Shown here piece after piece: positions 5,698-61,300 of a stretch of 64,000 nt of DNA (its first letter is position 1; every line of letters begins with the position of its first letter). The DNA lies in the NCBI GenBank assembly GCA_905181885.1, contig CAJIZI010000001.1:1-64000 (forward strand). Direction: 5' to 3'. Origin of the DNA: an uncultured Gammaproteobacteria bacterium (GTDB lineage: Bacteria; Pseudomonadota; Gammaproteobacteria; Nitrosococcales; Methylophagaceae). The position numbers and the translations under genes were made by a program. The notes beneath the pieces are model-generated. The model was not told where the DNA came from, did no database searches, and was given only the letters and a program-made list of their open reading frames with translations.

Positions 5698-6010
5698 CTT
5701 TTTTATTTTATTTTGGCCTGTCTACACGAGTTACCCGAGACTTACCCTAACTGGAAACTCACCTATTTAAACAATCAAAGGAGTACTTCACAGTATCAAG
5801 GCTTAAATTATTTGTCCTGATTTTATCGAATAAAGGGGAATACTAAAGCAATAGACCCAATCATGAATGCTTATTTAAATACTTCACTTGACCTTATGAT
5901 ATTTGCTCTCGAAAATATGAAGTAAAGTGAAAATAGTAACGGCCAATTTTATCTTCTAAGCCATTACTTTTAGTAATGAATCACTACAGGCTGATTAAAT
6001 CATGTTTTTC
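5698..6010. other. Intergenic stretch without recognisable gene
   Basis: This AT-rich stretch separates the acyltransferase start from the tRNA-Thr promoter. I see no convincing ORF or RNA. The only structure is a short inverted repeat, CATTACT and AGTAATG, around 5963-5980. Confidence 0.5.
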
Positions 6011-6039
6011 TTGCCATTACTCTAATCAATCCGTATAAT
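6011..6039 (+). promoter_or_regulatory. Sigma70-type promoter of tRNA-Thr
   Basis: TTGCCA (6011-6016) and a perfect TATAAT (6034-6039) are separated by exactly 17 bases and lie 13 bases upstream of the mature tRNA end. Confidence 0.75.
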
Positions 6040-6052
6040 TTCGCTTTTTCAA

Positions 6053-6128
6053 GCCGGTGTAGCTCAGTTGGTAGAGCATCTGATTTGTAATCAGAGGGTC
6101 GTAAGTTCAAGTCTTATCTCCGGCTCCA
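6053..6128 (+). tRNA. tRNA-Thr (TGT)
   Basis: The 76-base cloverleaf has an encoded CCA, D stem GCTC/GAGC, anticodon stem TCTGA/TCAGA and anticodon loop TTTGTAA, giving TGT (Thr). The acceptor stem has one T6-T67 mismatch and the T stem has a G.T closing pair. A near-consensus promoter precedes it and a strong terminator follows. Confidence 0.9.
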
Positions 6129-6136
6129 GATACAGT

Positions 6137-6170
6137 AAGGGTTTACAAGCAATTGTAAGCCCTTTTTTTT
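6137..6170 (+). terminator. Rho-independent terminator after tRNA-Thr
   Basis: Arms GGGTTTACAA and TTGTAAGCCC around a GCAA loop are followed by eight T. The hairpin and the sequence downstream of it resemble the tRNA-Asn 3' flank at 829-960. Confidence 0.88.
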
Positions 6171-6343
6171 GGGTGAAAAACAGCAGGTGGTGGAATAGGT
6201 GGTGGAACTCAATATCAATGGCTTACAAGGCATTATTCGTTATAAGTGATTAGCTTACTTAAACATTAGATTGGTTAGAGGCAACATCAAAGCCAGTTTT
6301 GACCCGGCCCCAAACCCAATCAAGTAATCAGTAAATAGCGCCC

Positions 6344-6373
6344 ATAAAAAACAAAACCCGCCGAAGCGGGTTT
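6344..6373 (-). terminator. Terminator of the His-rich periplasmic protein gene
   Basis: On the minus strand AACCCGC and GCGGGTT (6355-6372) form a tight stem with a four-base loop, followed by a T-rich run. It lies just beyond the stop at 6416. Confidence 0.8.
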
Positions 6374-6415
6374 GTCTGAGATTAAGGTTATGTGCTTTGG
6401 TGCTTTTGACAAGCT

Positions 6416-7075
6416 TTAGTGTTTCATACCCTCTGCATCCATCATGATTCCCATGTGTTGGCTTGCAACATTAAGACCACCTTCATGTGCATGCCAGCTG
6501 ATACCGCCGTCTCCATTGGCGTCAACACCATTAACAGCGGCTTGCGTCAGTTCTGCCATTTTGGCGGCATGAGCCGCAGCTTGACCTGCACTAGTTGCAA
6601 TAAGCACTGCTTGTGCTTCATATAAAGCCATTCTGCTACGCGCGATGGCATTGTTTAATGATGTCACTGCGTGTTCTGTGTGGACTTTGACTGCTTCGGA
6701 CGCACCTTCACTTTTACTGGCGAGTGTGGCGTGTCCAATTCCCCCATTGGCCGCCTTAATCAGCCCGTATCCAGTACCAGGTCCTGATGCTTCATATGAT
6801 GAGTCTATCGCGTGGCGCACATGTCTTGCATGCAATTTCATTGCTGCTAGATCGTTTGGAGATTTAGCGGCAAGAGCAGCGTGAGCGGCTGCAATTCCTG
6901 CATCTTTCATTGCCACAGGCAAAAGGCCATGTTGGGACGGTGTATCATTCCAACTAGTCATCACATGCCCGATATGAGCATGTGCTTCACTCATAGCTTC
7001 TCCTGCATAAGCACTGGTGTTAAAAGCCATTCCTGCAATCATTACCGATACTAACCCAGATATGATTTTTTTCAT
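6416..7075 (-). CDS. Periplasmic His- and Ala-rich protein of unknown function
   Basis: This 219-residue protein has a classical Sec signal peptide (MKKIISGLVSVMIAGMAF, cleavage after about residue 24, AYA). The mature part is predicted helical and rich in Ala and His (AHAHIGH, LHARHVRHAI, AAAHAAK). Near the C-terminus DANGDGGISWHAHE looks like a single EF-hand-type calcium loop. I recall the GHVMTSWNDTP pattern from uncharacterised proteins, but I know of no function. It follows katG on the same strand 62 bases downstream and is closed by its own terminator, so it may share control with katG. Metal binding is inference from composition only. Confidence 0.75.
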   Translation of the reverse strand: MKKIISGLVSVMIAGMAFNTSAYAGEAMSEAHAHIGHVMTSWNDTPSQHGLLPVAMKDAGIAAAHAALAAKSPNDLAAMKLHARHVRHAIDSSYEASGPGTGYGLIKAANGGIGHATLASKSEGASEAVKVHTEHAVTSLNNAIARSRMALYEAQAVLIATSAGQAAAHAAKMAELTQAAVNGVDANGDGGISWHAHEGGLNVASQHMGIMMDAEGMKH

Positions 7076-7137
7076 TTTTATACTCCTAATAAAGTTTATT
7101 TTGACGGTGTAAATTATGTCTGACTAATTATTTAGGC

Positions 7138-9342
<2,205 letters not shown>

Positions 9343-9414
9343 TTATTAAATGCTGATAATTACACCATAACTTTTAATTTTGAGATCTTTACTAAAATTT
9401 ATACTAACAACAAA

Positions 9415-9474
9415 TTAATTTATAAACCTAATTTTATTTAAAAAAAACCATATCCTACCCATAAGTAGTGACAT
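9415..9474 (-). other. Upstream mini-ORF in katG leader, fossil peroxiredoxin start
   Basis: A 19-codon frame (MSLLMGRIW...) is preceded by GGGAGGAAGGTAACT, a strong ribosome-binding site. The site and first codons align with the real start of the peroxiredoxin gene at 54132 (GAGAGGAAAGTAATT, then ATGTCATCACTTAT against ATGTCACTACTTAT). It may be translated as a leader peptide or simply be a relic of the gene that once followed this promoter. Confidence 0.55.
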
Positions 9475-9507
9475 AGTTACCTTCCTCCCACTGTCATTAA
9501 AGCTTTT

Positions 9508-9536
9508 TTTATAAAGGTATCTTATTAGGCTATCAA
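9508..9536 (-). promoter_or_regulatory. Sigma70-type promoter of katG
   Basis: On the minus strand TTGATA (9536-9531) and TATAAA (9513-9508) are separated by exactly 17 bases. The same elements with the same spacing occur in copy B at 54165-54193. Confidence 0.7.
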
Positions 9537-9558
9537 GTGTTTAACAAACAACTTGTTT

Positions 9559-9595
9559 CGATAATTTTAATCGGTAATAGCGATTTACTGTATCG
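9559..9595. promoter_or_regulatory. OxyR-like tetrameric operator upstream of katG
   Basis: Four blocks, CGAT (9559), ATCG (9570), CGAT (9581) and ATCG (9592), are each separated by seven bases, for 37 bp in total. This 4-7-4-7-4-7-4 layout equals the classical OxyR site (ATAG-N7-CTAT twice), though the block sequence differs from the E. coli consensus. It lies upstream of the -35 of katG. Binding by OxyR is inferred from geometry and from the two peroxide genes it precedes. Confidence 0.6.
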
Positions 9596-9710
9596 TTAAA
9601 AATCCCAATAAATCACTACATCAATTTAAAGTTAGATAGGTAGAGGTATTAACTGAACCTGAAAATATGATGAATACATACCATAAAAGAAATAAACCAC
9701 TCTCTGTAGC

Positions 9711-10772
9711 TTATTTAAGCAACGGAAGTCTATTTAATAACTTTTCACAATAATCCCATTCATCCAATGTTTCTCTCCACACCAATGGAATTGCATTAAC
9801 GCCATTGTATGCACCAAGAACCATCCCGATAGCAATTCCCCTTGACGCATTGTCTCCACCCACCATCGTGTTTTGCTGTAATGCTTTTTTTAGTCCATCT
9901 TTCTCATTTTCATACTTTAGAATGAAATAAACAGCACCAGGAAGTGTTCCCTCAGTAGGACTTGCTTTGCCTACTTTTATAGGTTCTGAACGACCTACGT
10001 CCCAGAGTCTTGCCATGCTGGTAATGGCAAGATCATCAGCAAATATCTCCTTCGAAAGTGCTGAGTTTTCATCGGTTGCTTCTTTTACTTTTTCCATTGC
10101 CTGAGCAACTTTATCCTGAAAAAAGCTATCCATTTCTAAAGCAGAAGACTCAATTGCATTAGAGGGCGTCTCTCCATTAATGACACGATGGGTGACGCGA
10201 GCGAAAAACTCACCACCTCCTAGCGCATGAAAATCTCTATGGGTAAACATGCTTTTTCTTGCAACATCGACAACTTCATCTATTGAGTCGTAATAGGCGT
10301 GTGCTGCTGCGTGGCGTATTGCCATCGCGTTAGAGAGCCCACCAAGACGTTCAACAGGGAGTCCCTGCTTTACTTGACCATAAGTCTCTCGTGTCATAGT
10401 ACAGATCCAAGAACCCCAGCCATTTTCAAGGCGCTTCATCCAGTGAGGGAGCAGGTCTGTCACATTAAAAGCTCTCGGGGCATCTGCAGTAGATGCCAAA
10501 TGCTCTAAAACCACAATATTATAGTCACCGTAATCAGTTGTCCCTCCGGCCTTTTTACCTGGATGGTAGTTACGTTCCCCCCAGCCAATGCCATGAGTTT
10601 GCCCACCCATCATCTCACCCGGTGACATATATTTTTCTATGGGTTTGTTACCGTATGCGTTATATATTTTTTGAGCGTCATACTCATAATGACTACCAAG
10701 ACAAAGTGCATCAGCCACGATAGCACCAAAAAATGTACCCTTTATTCTGTCTTTTTTTGAAATATTATCCAC
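9711..10772 (-). CDS. ADP-ribosylglycohydrolase family protein (J1-crystallin-like)
   Basis: This 353-residue protein starts at GTG, with AGGA upstream. The N-terminal DRIKGTFFGAIVADALCLG and C-terminal GGDNASRGIAIGMVLGA match the ADP-ribosylglycohydrolase fold, in which acidic residues at both ends bind metal ions. The family removes ADP-ribose from proteins or related molecules; the C-terminal GGDNASR differs from the usual GGDTDT, as in the J1-crystallin-like branch, so the substrate is open. It begins 15 bases after the Sel1 lipoprotein stop and is probably cotranscribed. A paralogue lies at 62575-63705. Confidence 0.85.
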   Translation of the reverse strand: MDNISKKDRIKGTFFGAIVADALCLGSHYEYDAQKIYNAYGNKPIEKYMSPGEMMGGQTHGIGWGERNYHPGKKAGGTTDYGDYNIVVLEHLASTADAPRAFNVTDLLPHWMKRLENGWGSWICTMTRETYGQVKQGLPVERLGGLSNAMAIRHAAAHAYYDSIDEVVDVARKSMFTHRDFHALGGGEFFARVTHRVINGETPSNAIESSALEMDSFFQDKVAQAMEKVKEATDENSALSKEIFADDLAITSMARLWDVGRSEPIKVGKASPTEGTLPGAVYFILKYENEKDGLKKALQQNTMVGGDNASRGIAIGMVLGAYNGVNAIPLVWRETLDEWDYCEKLLNRLPLLK

Positions 10773-53565: not shown

Positions 53566-54132
53566 TTATATCTTTCCAACTAGCTCTACTGAAGGTCTTA
53601 ATGTTTCTGCACCAGGCTGCCATGATGCTGGACAAACCTCACCCTCATTGGATGCAACGTACTGTGCAGCTTGTACTTTTCGTACTAGCTCTTTAGCACT
53701 ACGGCCAATCCCTAAATCGTGTATCTCACATACTTTAATCATTCCTTCAGGATCTAAAACAAATGTACCTCTGAGAGCTAGGCCAGCATCTTCTATCATG
53801 ACATCGAAGTTTCTTGTGATAGCTCCCGTAGGGTCGCCAATCATAGGGTAATTTATTTTGCCAATCGTATCAGATTCATCGTGCCAAGCTTTGTGTGTGA
53901 AATGTGTATCTGTAGATATTGAATAGACTTCAACGCCTAACTCCTTTAATTGAATATAATGGTCGGCTAAATCTCCTAGTTCAGTTGGGCAAACAAATGT
54001 AAAGTCAGCTGGGTAAAAGAAAAACACAGACCATTTTCCTTTAAGATCTATATCAGACAGTTCAACAAAATCGCCCTTATGATAAGCCGTGGCCTTAAAA
54101 GGTTTCACTTGTGTATTTATAAGTGATGACAT
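53566..54132 (-). CDS. ahpC: AhpC-type 2-Cys peroxiredoxin
   Basis: The 188-residue peroxidase reduces hydrogen peroxide and organic peroxides. Peroxidatic Cys48 is in [16 protein letters not shown] and the resolving Cys in [12 protein letters not shown] near the C-terminus, with an AhpC-type tail. No AhpF reductase lies nearby. The strong GAGAGGAAAG ribosome-binding site, promoter and OxyR-like array directly upstream are shared with katG. The ahpC name is by family; exact electron donor is open. Confidence 0.94.
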
Positions 54133-54164
54133 AATTACTTTCCTCTCACTGTGATTAAAGTTTT

Positions 54165-54193
54165 TTTATAAATGCATAATATAAGGCTATCAA
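54165..54193 (-). promoter_or_regulatory. Sigma70-type promoter of ahpC
   Basis: On the minus strand TTGATA (54193-54188) and TATAAA (54170-54165) are 17 bases apart, leaving a leader of about 26 bases. Identical elements stand before katG. Confidence 0.7.
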
Positions 54194-54215
54194 GTGTTTA
54201 ACAAACAACTTGTTT

Positions 54216-54252
54216 CGATAATTTTAATCGGTAATAACGATTTACTGTATCG
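54216..54252. promoter_or_regulatory. OxyR-like tetrameric operator upstream of ahpC
   Basis: CGAT (54216), ATCG (54227), CGAT (54238) and ATCG (54249) are each separated by seven bases, as in the katG copy. The second pair extends to a perfect TAACGAT/ATCGTTA inverted repeat. The site ends 22 bases upstream of the -35. Confidence 0.6.
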
Positions 54253-54379
54253 TTAAAAATCCCAATGACTCGCTACATCAATTCAAAGTTAGATAGCTGG
54301 AGGTATTAACTGAACCTGAAAATATGAATCGATAATCTCGAAGATACTAATGGGGAAAACAAATTTAGACCTTACAACT

Positions 54380-56392
54380 TTACTTTAACAACCCACGAAT
54401 ATTCGACAAATGAGCCTTGCCTCTTTCCTTACGCTCTTGAGGATCAGCTTGTACTTTTTCAGTCGTCCAGATTAAGTCATCAGAAGGAAGCTCTCTTAAA
54501 AAACGACTCTCTTCACACGTAATTTTTTCACCGTAACGTTTACGAGTATTGGCCATAGTAAAAACTAAACTACGCTGTGCACGTGTAATACCGACATAAG
54601 CAAGTCGTCGCTCCTCCTCAATGCTGTCCCCTTCAATACTAGCTCTGTGTGGGAGAATTTCTTCTTCCATACCGATGATAGTGACATGTGGAAACTCCAA
54701 GCCTTTTGCAGCATGTAAAGTCATTAAATGAACTGCATCAGACTGATTCTCATCAGCTTGACGTTCTAAAATATCCATCAAGGTTAGGCGGGCGGTTATA
54801 TCACCAATACTTTTCTCTTCAGTATCTTGTTCGATAAGTCGGCTAATCCAGGTTAACAACTCTTCAACATTATCCATCCGGCGTGTCGCTTGATCAGGAT
54901 CGCCTGTCACTTCCTCTAACCAGGCTCGATAATCTATCTCTTCAATCATATCCCGAATTGCTTCCATCAGATCGCCACGTTTTGCCCTATTAGCAATATC
55001 TATAAGCCAACGGCTAAAATGCTCAATACGTGTAACTGCTGCTGATGATAGCTTTGCATGGAGACCCATTTCAAAGCAGGCACCAAACATACTTGTTTTA
55101 CGATCTGCAGCATAGTTTCCTAACGCTTGTAATGTTGTTGATCCGATCCCTCGACGTGGGGTATTAATAACACGTAAAAAAGCATTATCATCATCTTGAT
55201 TAGCCAATAATCTGAGATAAGCCATAATATCTTTTACTTCAACGCGTGAGAAAAATGACGTGCCACCTGTTAAGATATAGGGAACATTATGTTCTCGCAG
55301 AATACGTTCTATGGGCCTTGATTGATGATTGCTCCTGTATAAGATCGCATAATCTTTAAAATCAGTTTGATGCTTTAACTTATGGTAGAGAAGTTCTGAC
55401 ACAACTTTTTCTGACTCATGATTATCGTCGCGACAACCAATTACACGAATGGCATCACCCTCTCCCATTGCACTCCATAATTTCTTTTCAAACAGGTGCG
55501 GGTTGTGACTGATTAACCCATTAGCTACACGTAAGATACGACTCATTGACCGATAGTTTTGCTCAAGCTTGATCAATTTTAAGCGTGGAAAGTCCACTTC
55601 TAATTGCGCTAGGTTTTCAGGTCTTGCACCACGCCAAGAATAGACTGATTGATCATCATCTCCTACCACCGTCAAAGCTTCACGAATACCAACTAATTGC
55701 TTCACCAATTCGTATTGGCAGCCATTGGTATCTTGATACTCATCTACTAATAAGTAATGGATCCTAGCTTGCCAGCGTTGTAAAATCTCAGGATACTCTC
55801 GGAATAATACTACCGGCTTTAAAATTAAGTCGTCAAAGTCAACGCCATTGTATGCTTTCAGTGCATCAACATAACGAGAATATATCTTAGCAGCTGCTTT
55901 TTGTTGTTCATCTTCTGCTACTTTTATTGCCTCTTCAGGCAAAATAAGCTTATTTTTCCATGCAGAAATCTGCCACTGGCATTGTTCTGCATGTTCACTA
56001 TCTGCAGCAAAGTCACGACCCATTAAATCACGTAATACAGCTAAGCTATCGTGTGCATCAAAAATTGAAAAACCTGACCGAAACCCAATATAGCTAAACT
56101 CTTTTCGTAAGATCGTTAAACCCAAATTGTGAAAAGTTGAGACCATAAGACCACGACTCGACATTTCACGGTCAGCCATCAATTGTGCCACCCGTTTTTT
56201 CATCTCACTCGCAGCTTTATTAGTAAAAGTTACTGCGGCAATGCGATGTGCAGGAATATTACATTGTTCAATCAAGTATGCAATTTTTCGCGTGATCACC
56301 CGTGTTTTACCGCTACCCGCACCAGCTAATACCAGTAAAGGACCGTCAATATGACGTGCAGCTTCTCGCTGTTGTGGGTTAAGATCTTGCAA
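54380..56392 (-). CDS. rep: ATP-dependent DNA helicase Rep
   Basis: The 670-residue superfamily 1A 3'-5' helicase helps replication forks pass obstacles. Walker A is VLAGAGSGKTRVITRK (about residue 20), motif II is LLVDEYQDTN, motif III GDDDQSVYSWRGARPEN, motif VI RRLAYVGITRAQ. The N-terminus and the C-terminal SRFLRELPSDDLIW and GKAHLSNIRGLL match Rep rather than UvrD. Confidence 0.95.
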   Translation of the reverse strand: MQDLNPQQREAARHIDGPLLVLAGAGSGKTRVITRKIAYLIEQCNIPAHRIAAVTFTNKAASEMKKRVAQLMADREMSSRGLMVSTFHNLGLTILRKEFSYIGFRSGFSIFDAHDSLAVLRDLMGRDFAADSEHAEQCQWQISAWKNKLILPEEAIKVAEDEQQKAAAKIYSRYVDALKAYNGVDFDDLILKPVVLFREYPEILQRWQARIHYLLVDEYQDTNGCQYELVKQLVGIREALTVVGDDDQSVYSWRGARPENLAQLEVDFPRLKLIKLEQNYRSMSRILRVANGLISHNPHLFEKKLWSAMGEGDAIRVIGCRDDNHESEKVVSELLYHKLKHQTDFKDYAILYRSNHQSRPIERILREHNVPYILTGGTSFFSRVEVKDIMAYLRLLANQDDDNAFLRVINTPRRGIGSTTLQALGNYAADRKTSMFGACFEMGLHAKLSSAAVTRIEHFSRWLIDIANRAKRGDLMEAIRDMIEEIDYRAWLEEVTGDPDQATRRMDNVEELLTWISRLIEQDTEEKSIGDITARLTLMDILERQADENQSDAVHLMTLHAAKGLEFPHVTIIGMEEEILPHRASIEGDSIEEERRLAYVGITRAQRSLVFTMANTRKRYGEKITCEESRFLRELPSDDLIWTTEKVQADPQERKERGKAHLSNIRGLLK

Positions 56393-59226: not shown

Positions 59227-61300
59227 TTAAAGTTTATATTCGAAACCTACAAAGGCTTGCCTTGGTGGCGCAGGCGTATAACGCTCGGAACCATAAGCAA
59301 GCTCAGCGCTCTCTGCATACAACCTATCGGTTATATTATTTACTCGCGCAAAAATTGTAAAGTTCTTATCTAATCTCATATCTCATTTTAATATTACCAA
59401 CATCATGCCCCGCATAACGTGCTGTATTTGCATCATCTAGCCAATAAGAACCAACATGTTCCCATTCAAACATGGTCGTCAAACCGCTCAATTGATTTGG
59501 CGTATATATCAAACGTGCATTAGCAGTGTTTTCAGGTGCCTGTTGCTGTTCATTATCACCATAAACATCATCTCCATCAAATTCGTGCTGCGAGAAGCTG
59601 TAAGCCAGTTTTGTAGTGACTTCATCAGATAATTTAGAGGCTAATGAAAATTCTAACCCGCGGTGGAGAGTTTTACTACCATTAACAAAATAACGCTCCC
59701 CGAAGGCATTTTCTCTACGAACAATTGTATCGTCAATTACAAGTGAGTAGATAGCCGTTGTAAATTCATGCCCCCCTTTTCTATATTTGTAACCAACTTC
59801 AAATGTATCTGTTACTTCTTCATCTAAACTAAAATCAATATTATTTGTTCTCAAGCTATACAAGCGTGATGCTTGAGGAACTCTAAAACCATTCGCATAG
59901 CGACCGTATACTGACTGCTGACTTGATATCTGATAAGTTAAATCAAGTTTAGGGCTAAGATGGTTAAAAGTAGGGTCAATATCAGAACTAGCCCGAGAGT
60001 ATGTAGAGGCAGCGTATTGACCATCTGTTAGCTTATTCGTGTATTCAAAGCTATTTATGTCATATCGTAAACCTGCACCTAACTTAATCTTTGGGGTTAT
60101 TGCAAGTTCAACTCTAATGTAGGGGGCAATGGCCTTATAATCAACTTCATAATCATAAATTTTACCCGCAGCCACCGTACTTCCCCAACCAGAGGGAGTA
60201 TAGTCAAATCCTTGTTCAAACTCAGTTGAAGCTTGAGTATATTCAACATCTAAGCCTGTTATTGTCTGCACTCTTCCTGTATCGATATCTGCTTTTAATA
60301 ATAATCCATAGCTATTTTCTTCGCTATCGTTAGATGGGGCATTCGCCTCCCAAGTCGCATTGTACCTATTCCTATTGTTACGAATATAAGCAATTGTGTT
60401 AACTTCAAGCATGTCAGATACTATATGATTCAGTTCAAAATTTAAACGAGAATAATCAAATTTTCGTATAGGTTCAACACCAGCACTTATGGTCCTCTCA
60501 ACATTTTGGCCAATATAGCTAGGTTCATCACGATAACGTCTGAACCCATTAATAGCACTTGTCATTTCTGACTCTGAACTATTTATGCTCAGACCTATTT
60601 TAAGCTGATTCTCATCATTTAGGTCATTGACATAATTAATTGAAAGTTCGTCCCGCTCATATTTGGAGTGCTCTCGCCAAACATCACTTTTTGCATGTGA
60701 AATATTGGCAGAAATTGCAGCATGCTCATCGATCTCTATAGCAGTCCCAATTTCAAATCGTTGAAAATCATCGCGGCCTGATTCGGCTGATAATTTAGTA
60801 CCTAAATTATCCATGGGGTTAGATGATCTAACATTTATGATTCCACCCACGGCATCAGAACCGTACAAGGCCGTACCAGCACCCTTAAATACTTCCACTG
60901 CACCCGCCGAACTAAAATTCGTATAAGCCAAGCCATTATGATTAAAAAATCCCGATGACTGGATCGGTATACTGTCTTGCAAAAACAAGTAATATGGGTT
61001 CGTACTTTGCGGTAAACGAATACTTGTCGTATGACCAACAGTTGATCCCGTTTGAGTCAAGCGGACACCAGCTATTGAATTTAATAATTCACGCTGCGTT
61101 GATGCTTTGTCAACTTCAACCTCACTGGCAGACTTTATATCTATGCTAGCTGGTAACTCTAGGGAAGAGCGCTCACTTCGCGTGGCTGTGACAGTCATAT
61201 CATCAAAAGTGATATCTTCAGCATAGCTGAAGCTAGCAAAACATAATAGCGACATCAATGATAGTGCTGAAGTAAGTATAATATTCATAACAATTCCCAA
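59227..61300 (-). pseudogene. TonB-dependent outer membrane receptor with C-terminal frameshift
   Basis: The first frame (61300-59366, 644 residues) has a signal peptide, a TonB-box-like DDMTVTATR, a plug domain (LLNSIAGVRLTQTGS, GTALYGSDAVGGIINVRS) and most of a 22-strand barrel. It stops at MRYEIR. The next frame continues perfectly as RLDKNFTIFARVNNITDRLY to the final FEYKL and stop at 59227, typical of receptor C-termini. One extra G near 59370-59380 explains the break. It could be a real null mutation, phase variation or a sequencing error. The ligand is unknown; linked genes hint at a metal or metal complex. Confidence 0.85.

Follow-up and report, generated by a model that had tools for sequence, protein, structure and literature searches.

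Why should the DNA ahead of a catalase-peroxidase gene recur, almost unchanged, ahead of a peroxiredoxin gene 45 kb away in the same genome? The two genes, katG and ahpC, lie in the window analysed here, that is, the first 64,000 nucleotides of contig CAJIZI010000001.1 from an uncultured gammaproteobacterium of the Methylophagaceae; the features of the katG and ahpC regions located in it below are on the minus strand. The reading we favour, to which we give a probability of roughly 0.78 from sequence comparison, is that katG and trxB each received a copy of an OxyR-dependent promoter that originated at ahpC.

Copies of one block at katG, ahpC and trxB

The katG gene (7138-9324) encodes a catalase-peroxidase of 728 aa (TIGR00198, 1258 bits), and ahpC (53566-54132) a peroxiredoxin of 188 aa (TIGR03137 AhpC, 334.9 bits for a cut-off of 272). 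Upstream of katG lies a 210-bp block, P' (9461-9670), which is identical in 191 of 210 aligned columns to the block P upstream of ahpC (54119-54327), with one 1-bp indel; past these limits the flanking sequences are unrelated. A first-pass annotation of this DNA had described a repeat of about 190 bp at these two places, with about eight differences across its outer 140 bases. Our alignment bears this out with slightly wider limits: the differences are concentrated toward the gene-proximal end, and 7-8 of them fall within the first ~145 columns.

When the genome (1,504,707 bases) was searched with the block, the ahpC copy was retrieved with an E-value of 1.9e-79, which excludes chance. A third copy, 67 bp long and 88% identical, stands directly upstream of trxB, encoding thioredoxin reductase, outside the window (C1:311652-311718), and there is no further match. 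The block is therefore no widespread repeat scattered beside unrelated genes, a possibility that the annotation had raised against itself: its three places all precede peroxide/thiol-redox genes, in the same orientation. Since katG, ahpC and trxB are not homologous, the near-identical promoter DNA ahead of them is what is expected of a propagated promoter. The annotation had further proposed that a whole regulatory unit was copied to a second gene; the copying stands, while the number of recipients has to be raised from one to two.

A predicted OxyR-type site and its regulator

On its coding strand the block reads CGAT-N7-ATCG-N7-CGAT-N7-ATCG; a gap of 11 bp leads from there to TTGTTA, and a -10-like hexamer comes 17 bp further on. 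Four alternating inverted half-sites of 4 bp, 7 bp apart and with a 22-bp period, make up the architecture of an OxyR-type site, although the half-sites of E. coli OxyR read ATAG/CTAT and those found here CGAT/ATCG. A genome pattern scan allowing up to three mismatches gave perfect matches (16/16 fixed bases) only at the predicted sites of katG (CGATACAGTAAATCGCTATTACCGATTAAAATTATCG, 9559-9595) and ahpC (54216-54252); the trxB site has two mismatches and all the rest have three, which puts them at background level. The reversed pattern, used as a control, gave 6+6 matches, and 0.07 matches are expected by chance in the window at this threshold.

A probable ahpC promoter, TTGTTA-17-TATTAT (54176-54204), was returned by a promoter scan with 9/12 consensus bases, a score for which about 1.3 sites are expected by chance in the region. 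In register with it, we place a probable katG promoter at 9519-9547, with TTGTTA (9547-9542), a 17-bp spacing and TAAGAT (9524-9519). The simple promoter scan calls no katG promoter, this candidate (8/12 consensus) being under its threshold, and TAAGAT is a weaker -10 match than the TATTAT of ahpC. The block promoter thus described appears to be sigma-70-like. Within the box and core promoter, P and P' differ at 1 of 68 sites; over the rest of the block they do so at 18 of 142 (Fisher p 0.008). This low divergence suggests that both copies are kept by selection; patchy gene conversion could also have produced it.

The genome encodes exactly one LysR-type regulator, with a LysR_substrate domain. 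OxyR is both its best NCBIfam match and its best PDB match (7l4s, 3e-58). Its score against the NCBIfam OxyR equivalog, 221 bits, does not reach the cut-off of 329, but OxyR is still the best family, and this cut-off serves to assign names and does not describe a functional property. The redox cysteines of E. coli OxyR, C199 and C208, are nine residues apart, and the protein keeps this spacing (GHCLRQHALTAC). Judged by its best family match, its cysteine spacing and its PDB relatives, it is a divergent OxyR.

Source, timing and route of the copies

The block upstream of katG carries a relic of ahpC. It reads GGGAGGAAGGTAACT-ATG-TCA-CTA-CTT-AT, to be compared with GAGAGGAAAGTAATT-ATG-TCA-TCA-CTT-AT at ahpC itself. 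The fossil ribosome-binding site and peroxiredoxin start that had been claimed on the katG side are real: alignment with ahpC identifies the ribosome-binding site GGGAGGAAGG (9489-9480), the ATG and about four ahpC codons, which now open a 19-codon leader ORF (MSLLMGRIWFFLNKIRFIN-stop, 9415-9474). All of these are meaningless for katG. From the fossil start to katG's own leader runs an A+T-rich spacer of 86 bp (9376-9461). We considered it as decayed ahpC sequence or as native katG upstream sequence, and rejected both, its similarity to ahpC or to the katG upstream region of G007, a relative, being no higher than that of shuffled sequences.

In ten relatives with an intact ahpC, a recognisable box lies 123-129 bp before the ahpC ATG, the distance being 120 bp here. 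The nearer relatives also keep, as does the present genome, the adjacency of ahpC to its conserved upstream neighbour, a rep/uvrD-type helicase gene (54380-56392). When 29 genomes from the genus were scanned with the strict box pattern, it was present upstream of ahpC in nine relatives and at two lone sites, and relatives lack the set of copies seen here, the present genome being the only one with the strict box at three genes. Both lone sites are one-mismatch matches (G006:C26:995-1021 and G012:C27:13095-13121), and no ahpC was found in either relative. Because the box belongs to ahpC in relatives, beside rep in the nearer ones, and because an ahpC start is fossilised at katG, ahpC is the source, in support of the direction first proposed. 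The opposite view, that the block was ancestral at katG, was rejected, as it is missing from the resident-type katG of relatives and also from G007, which has the same katG type as the present genome.

The katG gene itself probably came from elsewhere. In a katG tree, the type common to the present genome, G007 and G022, a sister species and the nearest relative, is nested among katG of many gamma- and beta-proteobacteria, and the katG of G003, G010, G011, G012 and G017 form a separate type. In the trxB tree, by conflict, the present genome and G022 (100/99) are joined by G010 (94/88) in a half that also holds G012 and G003, and G007 falls in the opposite half. This disagreement argues for horizontal acquisition of katG. 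Upstream of the resident-type katG (G010, G012, G011, G003, G017), we noticed an apparent weaker and independent OxyR-type box, ~100 bp from the start codon, which reads TTAATCG...GATTAA...TATC, AAACAATC-GTTTT.

The acquired gene occupies different places in the two sister species. Contig C3 of G022 is collinear with positions 6002-64000 of the window. In the present genome katG stands between a 219-aa gene of unknown family (6416-7075) and an ADP-ribosylglycohydrolase gene (9711-10772); in G022 these two border genes adjoin, with neither katG nor P' between them. The katG of G022 is found instead between a PLP-enzyme gene and rep, at the place expected for ahpC, where the ahpC promoter and a 72-codon piece of ahpC precede it. 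The ahpC remnant has lost its peroxidatic cysteine (FVFPTE for FVCPTE) and is under relaxed constraint (dN 0.115, dS 0.22). Its 72 codons, the first of AhpC, belong to a 76-codon open frame (G022:C3 48220-48450) that ends inside the katG leader; this frame could be translated as a leader, or it could be a relic in decay. Loss of the DNA that separates P from P' was considered as the origin of the G022 layout and rejected, the intervening 45 kb being present and collinear in G022.

Other parts of the collinear region depart from the usual divergence. Positions 6002-7130, which hold the 219-aa gene with its flanking DNA, show 96% identity to G022, with a dS of 0.07 where neighbours mostly have 0.3-0.5, pointing to a probable recent exchange. 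A 44-bp direct repeat, similar to window positions 6223-6266, lies on either side of the 219-aa gene in G022. At the other extreme, a TonB-dependent receptor gene (59366-61300) has a dS of 0.82, the highest of the collinear genes.

The trxB copy is probably older than the one at katG. The native upstream sequence of trxB is recognisable as far as '...TAATCT' and is then followed by the ahpC-like insert, which runs past the OxyR-type site into the promoter. Since the insert is at the same point in the present genome and in G022, the trxB capture predates their split. Among the trxB upstream regions of 22 relatives we found no such site, at least 6 of the 16 fixed bases being mismatched in the best of them. 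The trxB copy of G022 (G022:C55) lacks the middle of the OxyR box, apparently through recombination between two ATTATCG repeats.

The Jukes-Cantor distance between P and P' is 0.091, and their distances to the G022 promoter are 0.317 (P) and 0.332 (P'). In a three-way comparison, the odd one out is G022 at 43 sites, the katG copy at 7 and the ahpC copy at 5. A P-P' distance so far below those to G022 dates the origin of the katG copy, or its last homogenisation, to a time well after the split. The katG of G022 being under the ahpC promoter in another layout, a second event or a later homogenisation is needed. The simplest reading is that the same acquired katG captured the ahpC promoter on two separate occasions. 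We lean slightly toward the full scenario, in which katG was placed twice independently under the ahpC OxyR promoter in sister species, after an ancestral capture by trxB, so that the regulon grew via repeated promoter copying. We saw no mobile element and found no terminal repeats at the block ends, and the copying therefore probably went through illegitimate recombination.

The explanation we propose starts from an ahpC promoter with one OxyR site just upstream of its -35 element. A short promoter piece would have been inserted behind the native trxB promoter before the split from G022 and, later, a 210-bp piece extending from the rep-ahpC gap through the ahpC start codon would have been copied upstream of the acquired katG. 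Peroxide would oxidise OxyR via its two cysteines, and OxyR at the box would recruit polymerase to the adjacent promoter, an action of the oxidised protein that is established for OxyR. Expression of ahpC, katG and trxB would then rise together, supplying two enzymes against peroxide and one that reduces the thioredoxin pool. OxyR binding, peroxide induction, co-regulation of the three genes and a selective benefit are all predictions made from the sequences.

Could the same facts be explained by a single ancestral capture? In such a history katG would have entered the ahpC locus, as in G022, and the unit formed by P, the ahpC fragment and katG would later have been copied or moved, with P and P' homogenised by gene conversion and an intact ahpC kept or regained. 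This would account for both genomes having the same acquired katG placed after an ahpC promoter and an ahpC start, and direct repeats 45 kb apart could convert each other. The synonymous divergence of katG from its G022 counterpart, 0.185, is also below the 0.3-0.5 typical of its neighbours, so the two lineages may have swapped katG alleles once they had separated. However, P' is much nearer to P of its own genome (0.091) than to that of G022 (0.332), and this over its whole length. We saw no katG trace at the ahpC locus of the present genome, where rep and the PLP-enzyme gene around ahpC diverge ordinarily and thus give no sign of allelic replacement. The native katG terminator, common to G022 and G007, is missing in the present genome, and the 86-bp spacer holds no ahpC remnant. 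On balance we hold a single capture to be unlikely.

Three copies in one genome might also bring to mind a non-autonomous, MITE-like element landing upstream of genes at random. We find this very improbable: the copies are merely three, all in the same orientation at peroxide/thiol genes, they have different ends (210 and 67 bp), the block takes in part of the ahpC coding start, and its ends carry no terminal inverted repeats of the kind seen in IS or MITE. Even less credit can be given to OxyR sites that converged at each gene without any copying. Selection acts on the site itself, which could have had separate origins, and in relatives the resident-type katG genes appear to possess their own weak box. 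But the 210-bp likeness covers ahpC start codons, which serve no purpose ahead of katG, and this already refutes convergence for katG; the trxB copy continues beyond the site into promoter sequence (67 bp, 88%). Copying of the ahpC promoter is thus the reading we retain.

The fate of the promoter in G022 may be different. No LysR protein was found in this genome, which is 84% complete, and the box has diverged at the same pace as the DNA around it (20/68 versus 37/144 sites). If the gap is real, the G022 lineage could perhaps have lost the regulator, the promoter persisting without it.

Promoter copying and known systems

Discussions of regulon growth usually start from models in which sites are born by point mutation. 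The putative peroxide regulon described here, with its three genes, can be understood as one promoter in several copies: the source, direction, relative timing and an empty sister site can all be seen, and the client is an acquired gene. It offers, in a genome that is small and encodes a single LysR-type regulator, a natural example on which the growth of a regulon through promoter copying can be tested. There are precedents for promoters that propagate, for promoters captured by acquired genes and for the OxyR regulon, and we rate the present case as unusually complete; our literature search found no published description of one OxyR promoter multiplied across a regulon. To our knowledge, each promoter of a gamma-proteobacterial OxyR regulon has its own sequence, and published cases of mobile promoters are reportedly for the most part statistical repeats.

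In Yersinia pseudotuberculosis, katG, ahpC and trxB are among the predicted or tested members of the OxyR regulon (PMC8139631). The present system resembles the gamma-proteobacterial regulon in its targets, its four-tetranucleotide site with a 22-bp repeat and its one two-cysteine OxyR (PMC8139631), but differs in that three members share one promoter by descent. With the putative mobile promoters of Matus-Garcia, Nijveen and van Passel (2012, NAR), as presented in PMC9208149, it has in common an intragenomic promoter copy upstream of non-homologous genes; unlike in those cases, the source, direction, regulator and functional logic are readable here. Promoter capture is described in PMC11111574, which cites Blount 2012 and Li and Bock 2019, as activating horizontally acquired genes. 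There too, illegitimate rearrangement places an acquired gene under a resident promoter, and the katG in the ahpC locus of G022 is of this type; what sets the present case apart from the earlier ones, so far as they are summarised in that source, is a natural stress-responsive promoter and two layouts in sister species. Finally, non-coding regulatory DNA moves as a unit here as in the horizontal transfer reported by Oren et al. (2014, PNAS; as cited in PMC11111574), yet it has moved between loci of one genome and not by replacement of the same locus from another strain.
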